This document shows positions 51,731-58,472 of a stretch of DNA of 64,000 bases, in pieces (position 1 is the first letter of the stretch; every line of letters starts with the position of its first letter). The position numbers and the translations under genes were made by a program. Below the pieces are notes generated by a model, which worked only from the letters and a program-made list of their open reading frames with translations, was not told the origin of the DNA and made no database searches. The DNA comes from Caldicellulosiruptor owensensis OL (lineage in GTDB: Bacteria; Bacillota; Thermoanaerobacteria; Caldicellulosiruptorales; Caldicellulosiruptoraceae), in assembly GCF_000166335.1 (NCBI RefSeq), contig NC_014657.1:364501-428500 (forward strand), in the 5' to 3' direction.

Positions 51731-51774
51731 AATTCAAAATTTATTCTTAGGATTGCAAGAATTAAAGAAATTAC

Positions 51775-51804
51775 GTCCGACAAAGAAAGGCAGAACGGTC
51801 GGAC
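51775..51804 (+). terminator. Leader terminator/attenuator upstream of ilvB
   Basis: GTCCGAC and GTCGGAC pair around 16 bases, followed by TTTTCATATA, between the promoter and the ilvB ribosome site. An earlier small stem (ATTCTT/AAGAAT, about 51743-51762) precedes it. The leader of about 90 bases is too short for a T-box and encodes no obvious leader peptide. Confidence 0.55.
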
Positions 51805-51829
51805 TTTTCATATATAAAGGGTGGTTTTG

Positions 51830-53440
51830 ATGAAGGTGAAGATGACGGTAGCACGGGCAATGGTAGAGGTTTTAAAGAGCGAGGGTGTAGAGATTATCTT
51901 TGGCATTCCAGGTGCGGCAATATATCCGTTTTATGATGCGCTCTATAGCTCTGATATTAAGCATGTCTTAGTACGTACTGAACAGGCAGCAGTTCATGAG
52001 GCAAGCGGATATGCACGCACAACAGGCAAGGTTGGTGTGTGCGTTGCAACCTCTGGGCCTGGTGCTACAAATCTTATAACTGGCATTGCAACTGCATATA
52101 TGGATTCAGTTCCTATTGTAGCAATTACAGGTCAGGTAAATTCAAGTTTAATTGGGAAAGATGTGTTTCAAGAGGTGGACATTACTGGAGCCACAGCTCC
52201 TTTTACCAAGCATAATTATCTTGTGAAAGATCCAAAAAAGATTGTAAGAGTATTAAAAGAAGCTTTTTATATAGCCTCAACAGGAAGAAGAGGACCTGTT
52301 TTAGTAGATGTCCCCATAGATGTTCAGATGCAGGAGATTGAATTTGAAATTCCGAGAGAAATTGAGATACCGGGTTACAAGCCGAGGGAAAAGGGACATC
52401 CTTTACAAATAAAAAGGGCGGCAGAAGCTATAGAAGCTGCCAAAAAACCGGTTATATGCAGTGGTGGCGGTGTGATTGCTTCAAAGGCTTCTGAAGAATT
52501 GAGAATTCTGGTTGAAAGGCAAAAGATTCCAGTTATTTCAACTTTAATGGGGATTGGAGCTATTTCGACAAATCATCCATACTATCTTGGGATGATTGGT
52601 TCACACGGGCAGAGAGAAGCAAATCTTGCTTTAAGACAGGCAGACCTTTTAATTGTGGTTGGAGCACGGCTTGCTGACAGAGCATTAGGTGATACAAAGA
52701 TTACTGACAATATGAAAATTATTCATATAGATATTGACCCTGCTGAGATTGGTAAAAATGTTGATACTAATATCCCAATTGTTGGTGATGCAAAATATGT
52801 TCTTTCAGAAATAAACAAAAGAGTTTCGGAGAGAGAAGAATTCTGGGCTGCCGAGATAAAGGCGCAAAAGAAAATTTTGCCAGACGATGGAAAACTTCAT
52901 CCCTATGATGTGCTGAGAGAAATTTCAGTTCAATATGATGGAGAGTATATAATCACAACAGATGTTGGTCAGCACCAGATATGGGCGGCACACCATTTGT
53001 ATATAAAAAGACCAGGGACTTTTATTACATCTGGTGGACTTGGAACAATGGGATATGGTGTTCCGGCAGCTATTGGTGCAAAGTTTGGAAAACCAGAAGA
53101 AGAGGTTATAGCAATAACAGGTGACGGAAGTTTTCAGATGCTTATGCAAGAGCTTGCAACAATAAAAAGAGAGCAGGTGCCAGTTAAAATTGTTTTATTT
53201 AACAACACAAGGCTTGGAATGGTATATGAACTTCAAAAGAAAAGATGTACAGGCAGATTTATAGCAACGTGCTTGGATGGTAACCCTGACTTTATGATAT
53301 TGGCAAAGGCATATGAGATTGAAGGTATGAGGCTTGAAAGTAAAGAAAAATTAAAAGAAGCTATTTCGGCCATGAAAAATCACAAGGGTCCATTTTTACT
53401 TGAGGTTGTGACAAGCCCTGATGAGCCAACTATACCTTAA
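51830..53440 (+). CDS. ilvB: Acetolactate synthase, large subunit
   Basis: A 536-residue TPP/FAD enzyme joining pyruvate with pyruvate or 2-oxobutyrate, the common step of valine, leucine and isoleucine synthesis. Motifs are VIFGIPGAAIYPFYDAL, VRTEQAAVHEASGYARTTGKVGVCVATSGPGATNLITGIA with the catalytic Glu, and GRRGPVLVDVP. GDGSFQMLMQELATIKREQVPVKIVLFNN binds TPP/Mg. The start ATG 51830 has GGGTGG five bases before. It is slightly shorter than many IlvB (about 550-570). It heads ilvB-ilvN-ilvC-leuA. Confidence 0.96.
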   Translation: MKVKMTVARAMVEVLKSEGVEIIFGIPGAAIYPFYDALYSSDIKHVLVRTEQAAVHEASGYARTTGKVGVCVATSGPGATNLITGIATAYMDSVPIVAITGQVNSSLIGKDVFQEVDITGATAPFTKHNYLVKDPKKIVRVLKEAFYIASTGRRGPVLVDVPIDVQMQEIEFEIPREIEIPGYKPREKGHPLQIKRAAEAIEAAKKPVICSGGGVIASKASEELRILVERQKIPVISTLMGIGAISTNHPYYLGMIGSHGQREANLALRQADLLIVVGARLADRALGDTKITDNMKIIHIDIDPAEIGKNVDTNIPIVGDAKYVLSEINKRVSEREEFWAAEIKAQKKILPDDGKLHPYDVLREISVQYDGEYIITTDVGQHQIWAAHHLYIKRPGTFITSGGLGTMGYGVPAAIGAKFGKPEEEVIAITGDGSFQMLMQELATIKREQVPVKIVLFNNTRLGMVYELQKKRCTGRFIATCLDGNPDFMILAKAYEIEGMRLESKEKLKEAISAMKNHKGPFLLEVVTSPDEPTIP

Positions 53441-56545: not shown

Positions 56546-56554
56546 AATTGCCTC

Positions 56555-56583
56555 TTTACAATTTTATAAATTGGGTTTAAAAT
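56555..56583 (+). promoter_or_regulatory. Promoter of the cimA leader
   Basis: TTTACA (56555-56560), 17 bases, TAAAAT (56578-56583), starting ten bases after the leuA stop. It allows cimA to be transcribed separately from ilvBNC-leuA. Confidence 0.6.
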
Positions 56584-56624
56584 AATTAGCAAATAAATTT
56601 TAAAGGGTCAAAGGGGTGCAAAAA

Positions 56625-56789
56625 ATGATAATACGAATATGCGGCGCAATCACAATAATTGGTATTATTTCGATAATTAGAAAGAGAATAATTAAATTGA
56701 TTTATAAAATTTCATATGCCGCATTGCACCCATTTTGGCCTGTGTATGATGAAAGAGGGTTTTTAAAAAGACCCTTAGGGCATGGTTGA
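56625..56789 (+). CDS. Isoleucine-rich leader peptide for cimA
   Basis: A 54-codon frame with AAGGGG eight bases before its ATG. The first 28 residues, starting MIIRICGAITIIGIISIIRK, contain 13 isoleucines; the rest is ordinary (PFWPVYDERGFLKRPLGHG). The stop at 56789 lies 40 bases before a strong intrinsic terminator that precedes cimA, the first enzyme of isoleucine synthesis from pyruvate. GGGTGCAA over its ribosome site (56614-56621) can pair with TTGCACCC (56724-56731), and ATGCGGC (56639-56645) with GCCGCAT (56718-56724), enclosing the Ile codons. I infer ribosome-mediated attenuation by charged tRNA-Ile. At 54 codons it is long for a leader peptide. Confidence 0.72.
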   Translation: MIIRICGAITIIGIISIIRKRIIKLIYKISYAALHPFWPVYDERGFLKRPLGHG

Positions 56790-56828
56790 ATTGATAAAAA
56801 GTTTTGTTTCAAATGAGTTTTGAGTTTT

Positions 56829-56865
56829 AAAGCCCAGCCTAAAAAATCACAGGCTGGGCTTTTTT
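56829..56865 (+). terminator. Attenuator terminator in the cimA leader
   Basis: AAAGCCCAGCCT and AGGCTGGGCTTT pair over 12 bases with a ten-base loop, followed by a T run. CACAGGC (56848-56854), covering the 3' arm, can alternatively pair with GCCTGTG (56738-56744) inside the leader peptide frame, which would break the terminator. The cimA ribosome site (AAAGGAGG) comes about ten bases later. Confidence 0.8.
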
Positions 56866-56891
56866 GATATTCTTAAAGGAGGGAAAATAAA

Positions 56892-58472
56892 GTGGAAGAT
56901 AACAAGACAATCATCATCTATGATTCGACTTTAAGAGATGGAGCTCAGGCGGGCGGAATTTCATATACTCTGGAAGATAAACTTAAAATTGTAGAAAGAC
57001 TTGACAAGTTTGGAGTAAAATTTATTGAGGCAGGCAATCCGGGTTCTAACATCAAAGACCAGGAGTTTTTTGCAAGGGTAAAACAAATGAGGCTTAAAAA
57101 CGCAAAGCTTATCGCCTTTGGTTCAACAAGAAGAGTTGGAATTGATGTGAAAGATGACCCTAATATTCAATCATTAATTGCAGCTGATACTGAAGCTGTT
57201 GCAATTTTTGGAAAGTCATGGGATTTTCATGTAATAGAAGTGCTAAGAACAACAGAGGATGAGAATCTTCAAATGATTTATGATACAATAAAATATTTAA
57301 AGTCGTTGGGTAAGTATGTCGTATTTGATGCTGAACACTTTTTTGATGGTTATAAGAATAATAAAAAATATGCATTGGAGACATTAAAGGTTGCAAAAGA
57401 AGCCGGGGCAGACTCTTTAGACCTGTGCGATACAAACGGCGGTACTTTCCCGATGGATATTTATAACATCACTAAGGAAGTTGTTGAGATGTTTCCTGGG
57501 ACATTGATTGGAATTCACTGTCACAACGATACAGGTATGGCTGTTGCAAACTCAATCATGGCAGTTTTGGCAGGGGCACGACAAGTTCAGGGGACTATAA
57601 ATGGATATGGCGAAAGATGTGGTAATGCAGACCTTATCACACTAATTCCAAATCTTCAGCTAAAGCTTGGTTTTAAATGTGTACCGGATGAAAATATGAA
57701 ACACCTGACATCCCTTTCAAGGTATGTTGCTGAAATTGCTAATATGATTCCAAACGAGCGCGCACCTTATGTGGGTGCTTATGCGTTTACTCACAAGGCT
57801 GGTATGCACATTGATGCTGTCAAGAAAAATCCGGCTTCATTTGAGCATATCAATCCTGAAATTGTTGGAAATACAAGAAGAATAGTACTATCTGAGGTTG
57901 CAGGAAGAGCTACAATTCTTGACAAGATTCGTGAAGTTGACCCGACAGTTACAAAAGATTCACCTGTTACAAAAGAGATTATTGATGAGCTAAAACGCCT
58001 TGAAAATGAAGGATATCAGTTTGAGTCTGCAGAGGCTTCATTTGAGATGCTAATTAGAAAAAAGCTGGGGCTTTATCAGCCGTTCTTTACTCTCAAAGAG
58101 TTCAAAGTTTTGATTAATGAGCCAGCAGTAGAGTACAGTTCATCTGCAATTGTAAAGATTGCAGTAGATGGTGTTACGGCAATCACAGCAGCAGAAGGTG
58201 ATGGACCTGTCCATGCCTTAGATAGTGCTTTGAGAAAAGCTTTGGAAAAATTCTACCCAGAGCTCAAAGAAGTGCATTTGGTTGATTACAAGGTTAGAGT
58301 TTTGAATGCTGAAACTGCAACTGCTGCAAAGGTAAGAGTTCTGATTGAGTCAACAGACGGAAAAGATACATGGACAACTGTAGGTGTTTCGACCGACATT
58401 GTAAATGCAAGCTGGATTGCGCTTGTGGATTCACTGGAGTACAAGCTTTGCAAGGAAAAGATTGAGAAATAA
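56892..58472 (+). CDS. cimA: (R)-citramalate synthase
   Basis: A 526-residue enzyme condensing pyruvate with acetyl-CoA to citramalate, opening the threonine-independent route to isoleucine. The barrel has IYDSTLRDGAQAGGISYTLEDKLKIVERLDKFGVKFIEAG, FDAEHFFDGYKNNKKYA (typical of CimA, not LeuA), LCDTNGGTFP, GIHCHNDTGMAVANS and GYGERCGNADL. HKAGMHIDAV and a C-terminal allosteric domain (EGDGPVHALDSALRKAL) follow. The start is GTG 56892 after AAAGGAGG. It has its own promoter and an isoleucine-rich leader with terminator, so control by isoleucine is likely at both RNA and protein level. Confidence 0.93.
   Translation: MEDNKTIIIYDSTLRDGAQAGGISYTLEDKLKIVERLDKFGVKFIEAGNPGSNIKDQEFFARVKQMRLKNAKLIAFGSTRRVGIDVKDDPNIQSLIAADTEAVAIFGKSWDFHVIEVLRTTEDENLQMIYDTIKYLKSLGKYVVFDAEHFFDGYKNNKKYALETLKVAKEAGADSLDLCDTNGGTFPMDIYNITKEVVEMFPGTLIGIHCHNDTGMAVANSIMAVLAGARQVQGTINGYGERCGNADLITLIPNLQLKLGFKCVPDENMKHLTSLSRYVAEIANMIPNERAPYVGAYAFTHKAGMHIDAVKKNPASFEHINPEIVGNTRRIVLSEVAGRATILDKIREVDPTVTKDSPVTKEIIDELKRLENEGYQFESAEASFEMLIRKKLGLYQPFFTLKEFKVLINEPAVEYSSSAIVKIAVDGVTAITAAEGDGPVHALDSALRKALEKFYPELKEVHLVDYKVRVLNAETATAAKVRVLIESTDGKDTWTTVGVSTDIVNASWIALVDSLEYKLCKEKIEK

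Follow-up and report, generated by a model that had tools for sequence, protein, structure and literature searches.

The spacer upstream of the citramalate synthase gene cimA in Caldicellulosiruptor owensensis carries an isoleucine-rich leader that very probably (about 0.88) controls cimA by ribosome-mediated transcription attenuation in response to charged tRNA-Ile. Attenuation had been proposed in an earlier note on this DNA, and the comparison of genomes described here supports that reading. The mechanism is classical and known for branched-chain amino acid (BCAA) operons; the target gene and the leader family are, as far as found, new in the open-access literature searched. "The window" denotes the whole stretch of 64,000 nucleotides that was analyzed.

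The leuA-cimA spacer and its leader ORF

The genes 5' of the spacer are ilvB, ilvN, ilvC, and leuA, and leuA ends directly upstream. The gene that follows is a citramalate synthase based on its match to the TIGR00977 equivalog (770 bits against a cut-off of 450 bits), which agrees with the placement of the leader directly before cimA in the earlier note. The citramalate route is a path to 2-oxobutyrate and isoleucine, so cimA belongs to the pathway of the amino acid that would be sensed. The features of the region are as follows.

56546-56891: leuA-cimA spacer, containing in order a promoter-like element, a Shine-Dalgarno sequence, the leader ORF, and a terminator, followed by the cimA start at 56892
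56555..56583, + strand: promoter-like TTTACA - 17 nt - TAAAAT, 10/12 match
56606..56621, + strand: P1 5' arm GGTCAAAGGGGTGCAA, which includes the leader Shine-Dalgarno sequence and folds with 56724-56740
56610-56616: Shine-Dalgarno sequence AAAGGGG of the leader ORF, by sequence inspection
56625..56789, + strand: leader peptide ORF MIIRICGAITIIGIISIIRKRIIKLIYKISYAALHPFWPVYDERGFLKRPLGHG, 54 codons, ATG at 56625, stop TGA at 56787-56789
56628..56711, + strand: putative sensing segment, Ile codons 2-29 (14 Ile)
56639..56645, + strand: inner stem 5' arm ATGCGGC, partner GCCGCAT at 56718-56724
56718..56740, + strand: 3' arms, GCCGCAT 56718-56724, TTGCACCC 56724-56731, GGCC 56737-56740
56737..56744, + strand: antiterminator segment GGCCTGTG, invariant in 13/13 genomes
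56829..56865, + strand: intrinsic terminator, 12-bp stem (arms 56829-56840 and 56851-56862), 10-nt loop, U-run
56848..56854, + strand: CACAGGC, predicted antiterminator partner across the terminator loop and 3' arm, invariant in 13/13 genomes
56892..58472, + strand: cimA, citramalate synthase, the putatively regulated gene

The 54-codon ORF described earlier, with its good ribosome site and 13 Ile in codons 1-28, was borne out on the sequence. The window contains 532 ORFs with a length of 28 codons or more, and this one has the densest Ile stretch among them. Neither 40 dinucleotide-shuffled versions of the window nor 5000 shuffled versions of the spacer contained an ORF with 13 Ile among 28 codons. 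Folding of the leader RNA is 4.1 standard deviations more favorable than that of its shuffled versions. The ORF has no match in Pfam or NCBIfam. The Shine-Dalgarno sequence, the start codon, the clustered Ile codons, presence in 13/13 genomes, and a tail with coding constraint indicate that the ORF is probably translated.

The promoter that the note had assigned to the leader has a good candidate at 56555-56583, and its hexamers and their spacing are kept in 12/12 congeners and in the sister-genus genome G012, where the spacer sequence between them is different. The terminator was also recovered by folding, and its stem begins about 40 nt past the leader stop codon, as first reported. A pattern scanner had missed it because the scanner's loop limit is 8 nt and the actual loop is 10 nt. 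All of the complementary segments are present: GGGTGCAA (56614-56621) pairs with TTGCACCC, ATGCGGC pairs with GCCGCAT, and GCCTGTG (56738-56744) is complementary to CACAGGC.

A BCAA-rich leader ORF was looked for before ilvB and none was found; a conserved hairpin is there instead. The hairpin GTCCGAC...GTCGGAC followed by TTTTCATATATAAAGGGTGG (51772-51830) hardly varies across 9 compared genus genomes, within a 5' UTR that diverges apart from its conserved promoter. A separate RNA control of ilvBNC-leuA by this hairpin is possible. Ile, Val, or Leu leaders were not seen before ileS, valS, or leuS of this genome.

Conservation in the genus and in a sister genus

Each of the 12 genus genomes has a single copy of the leader, before cimA, with an ORF length of 52-54 codons and an Ile count of 12-14. 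Codons 2, 3, and 5 are ATA (Ile) without exception, and between the arms the sequence varies with its Ile codons retained. Codons 26-41 are a 16-codon run that is identical across the 12 genomes (pS 0.00). Mean pairwise pS in the flanking genes is 0.44 for leuA and 0.40 for cimA, and the longest invariant runs in these genes are 5-6 codons. The invariant block contains the P1 3' arms, every base of 56718..56740 included, plus GGCCUGUG (codons 38-40), whose partner is CACAGGC. The P1 5' arm is invariant across the 12 congeners except for its last base, A56621, which is G in G008.

The terminator is kept in 13/13 genomes between the leader ORF and the structural gene. Its loop varies in sequence and length outside of CACAGGC, and the loop bases CAC are invariant. 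An invariant CACAGGC amid a variable loop therefore fits the prediction of an antiterminator and not that of a plain terminator. RNAalifold paired GGCCTGTG with CACAGGCT in 9/9 sequences with a covariation term of +0.57, which is not favorable. The search for compensatory changes proposed in the note gave a divided result. One terminator pair changes from G-C to A-U in G012 through substitutions in both arms, and a G-U pair occurs in G004, but no compensatory changes were found in P1 or the antiterminator because the arms of both are invariant.

The sister genus is represented by one genome, G012. Its cimA is 85% identical and is located elsewhere in the genome, not behind leuA. Upstream of this cimA are the same promoter hexamers and spacing, AAAGGGGTGCA, a leader ORF, TGCACCC, GGGCCTGTG, and a terminator (AACCCAGC...GCTGGGTT) that retains CACAGGC. 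The ORF starts ATG ATA ATA ATA CGA ATA TGC, has 32 codons with 11 Ile, and terminates at a stop codon within the antiterminator, which is the arrangement of a textbook attenuator. Beyond the promoter, Shine-Dalgarno sequence, Ile codons, terminator, and antiterminator, little else is kept; G012 has neither the inner stem nor the long peptide tail. The inner stem, which the note had drawn around the Ile codons, is present in the genus with an invariant ATGCGGC arm, but it is not essential because the sister genus does without it. The leader and terminator stay with cimA in the absence of leuA, and therefore the terminator belongs to cimA. Loss of the ORF or its Ile codons from relatives that keep the terminator, the outcome that the note had set against its own reading, was not seen: the 12 congeners and the sister genus all retain both. 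Sequence and folding thus establish the ORF, its Ile codons, the stems, their conservation, and the identity of the gene.

The C-terminal tail of the peptide evolves differently from the middle of the ORF. Codons 45-53 (GFLKRPLGH, 56757-56783) have a pS of 0.25 and a pN of 0.008 (pN/pS 0.03) in the genus, and about 7/8 of the changes are synonymous. By this substitution pattern the amino-acid sequence of the tail is constrained within the genus, which suggests that the ORF is translated to its end. Simple attenuation does not account for the conserved GFLKRPLGH, and its conservation hints at a further role. A small hairpin, in which one A-U pair has become G-C by a compensatory change, also overlaps the tail region.

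A predicted kinetic switch and its alternatives

From these elements we infer stalling, a kinetic order of events, and a response to isoleucine. Transcription would begin just after 56583, and a ribosome would start the leader ORF. When Ile-tRNA is short, the ribosome would stall at the first Ile codons (AUA AUA CGA AUA) or at later ones and sit upstream of GGCCUGUG; a stall on codons 2-3 would additionally hold P1 open. GGCCUGUG would then take CACAGGC upon its emergence, ahead of closure of the terminator stem, and cimA would be transcribed. When Ile is plentiful, the ribosome would pass over GGCCUGUG into the tail. The ribosome would first cover the antiterminator, which P1 would sequester again after its passage; the terminator would form, and cimA would be off. 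P1 once formed buries the Shine-Dalgarno sequence, and therefore an untranslated leader should tend to terminate.

To model the nascent RNA, folding was repeated with the ribosome footprint moved along the ORF one codon at a time. With CACAGGC just out and codons 1-3 in the P site, a ribosome is waiting for codons 2-4, of which 2 and 3 are Ile; P1 is then predicted to be open with an antiterminator probability of 0.87-0.98. The predicted probability is 0.00 when CACAGGC is out and the ribosome is at codons 36-46. With no ribosome, or with P1 closed, the model still gives 0.49 at 37 °C and 0.24 at 70 °C, so the basal state would not be sharply off. For G012 the predicted values are 0.91-0.99 at every position through codon 26 and 0.00 when the ribosome is at codons 28-32. 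In both genera, the model has stalling upstream of GGCCUGUG permit the antiterminator and a ribosome reaching GGCCUGUG forbid it. At equilibrium the finished terminator, as the more stable structure, is predicted to win always (0.96-0.98 at any ribosome position). The choice to antiterminate must therefore be kinetic. The GGCCUGUG:CACAGGC(U) pairing is invariant and predicted, has no compensatory changes, and would exert its effect kinetically.

Three other explanations were weighed. The terminator could mark the end of the ilvBNC-leuA operon, with the cimA promoter further down and the ORF either incidental or encoding an unrelated hydrophobic small protein. The position of the leuA end just upstream fits this arrangement, as do the hydrophobic and basic character of the peptide and the protein-like evolution of its tail. 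However, the sister genus keeps leader and terminator at cimA without leuA, a conserved promoter precedes both the ORF and the terminator, and synonymous sites in the central part of the ORF are constrained in an RNA-like, not protein-like, manner. A small protein is further opposed by the lack of a Pfam or NCBIfam match and by the sister peptide having no tail. The chance that the operon-end explanation is correct is very small. A riboswitch of an uncharacterized kind, or an RNA bound by a protein, would account for a strongly conserved segment plus a terminator where no T-box is found, with the Ile codons as a by-product of AT-rich sequence. This is the least probable of the three: the Ile density is far above the expectation from composition, the ORF is open in 13/13 genomes with a good Shine-Dalgarno sequence, the variable region between the arms still keeps its Ile codons, and Rfam gives no match there at the gathering score or below the threshold.

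The amino-acid constraint on codons 45-53 is not required by plain attenuation and leaves a slim chance that the response runs through the nascent peptide, as an arrest peptide or in trans, either instead of or in addition to the supply of tRNA-Ile. The tail is absent from the sister genus, where the ORF stops inside the antiterminator, and the Ile codons are the feature common to both genera; in our judgment the peptide also has no recognizable known arrest motif.

T-boxes, other cimA leaders, and known attenuators

Neither the window nor G000 nor any other of the 12 genus genomes (G000-G011) has a match to the T-box covariance model (RF00230), and no other Rfam family was matched at the leader. 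G012 has one weak RF00230 match, upstream of an apparent thrS. The same search finds 9-13 T-boxes per genome in nine further class members. The genomes point to an apparent lineage-wide loss of T-boxes in the genus. The idea that the leader replaced a cimA T-box was dropped: none of 183 surveyed cimA upstream regions from other bacteria has a T-box motif, and therefore the claim is limited to the genome-wide absence of T-boxes.

The survey of cimA upstream regions detected an Ile-rich ORF plus terminator at deltaproteobacterial L055, L077, and L088, and no Ile leaders before cimA in other Bacillota. The detection rule recovers 13/13 Caldicellulosiruptoraceae, 0/1810 shuffled regions, and 0/520 shuffled Caldicellulosiruptoraceae regions. 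Among the 12 nearest CimAs of L088 in its phylum (L088 included), 11 have an Ile-rich ORF and terminator (L153-L159 and L161-L164, L153 being L088 itself). These leaders, of which MAGNMITIIIRPIIIIEGIILVSKT and MTKDIRTIIISNIIISFFIGGPVAE are examples, sit about 150-300 nt before cimA; a run of Leu is also present in several. In several of them the terminator 5' arm has a complementary segment (e.g. CCTGATAATGG or CCTGGCCGTGG) that changes together with it; in others (e.g. L055, L088, and L158) the match to that arm is poor. Compared by eye, the deltaproteobacterial leaders have no similarity to the Caldicellulosiruptor leader. The two are apparently unrelated, and therefore this control would have arisen at least twice.

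Other class members (L122, L124, L127, L129, L130, L133, and L134; genera g5 and g6, family f3) have a conserved TTATCAGTTCAATTTGATAA-like partial palindrome just before cimA that overlaps the promoter region. This palindrome suggests that a DNA-binding regulator may act there in place of attenuation.

A broader scenario joins several of these strands and is offered tentatively, as unlikely to hold in every part. The T-box system would have been lost, Ile entry would be governed by the cimA attenuator through an antiterminator that targets the terminator loop and 3' arm, the tail would have a selected second role (to pace the ribosome, to arrest it, or to act in trans), and the deltaproteobacterial leaders would have an independent origin.

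Citramalate synthase joins the genes under putative leader-peptide attenuation; the genus concerned consists of thermophiles that degrade cellulose and seemingly have no T-box at all. The same Ile-to-cimA logic apparently arose at least twice. The leader is a testable candidate for an Ile-responsive switch in a thermophile used in bioprocessing, and it makes a case for asking what substitutes for T-boxes once a Clostridia lineage loses them.

Firmicutes do in general rely mostly on T-boxes, as the note remarked, but examples of ribosome-mediated attenuation are documented among them too. It is described for ilvD of S. aureus (PMC5794164), ilv-leu of Listeria monocytogenes (PMC5864092), and hisZ/hisS of bacilli (PMC2965389), and PMC9413887 also documents leader-peptide attenuation in Firmicutes; the enterobacterial ilvGMEDA (ilvL), ilvB, and leu attenuators are summarized in PMC6123439. 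The open-access literature, mostly in the form of titles and abstracts, yielded no description of cimA or citramalate leader attenuation or of this Caldicellulosiruptor element, in line with the note, which knew of none.

T-box riboswitches are the usual means of sensing uncharged tRNA in Clostridia; they are absent from 12/12 genus genomes and unmatched at the leader. Compared by description and not by alignment, the leader resembles the S. aureus and Listeria ilv-leu systems in combining a Firmicute BCAA gene, a BCAA-rich leader ORF, and a terminator/antiterminator pair in which a stalled ribosome favors read-through. Those systems control ilvD or ilv-leu operons with Leu-rich or mixed leaders, whereas the Caldicellulosiruptor leader precedes a single gene, cimA, is almost purely Ile, and has a predicted antiterminator that targets the terminator loop and 3' arm. 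The deltaproteobacterial leaders share the Ile-rich ORF and terminator directly before cimA, but their likely antiterminator (e.g. CCTGATAATGG) pairs with the terminator 5' arm. Enterobacterial ilvGMEDA, ilvB, and leu have in common with it regulatory codons for the end product, alternative stems, and a terminator. Enteric bacteria make Ile from threonine, and therefore cimA is not an attenuation target there. The enterobacterial leader ORF stops before the antiterminator segment, whereas the Caldicellulosiruptor ORF reads through it.
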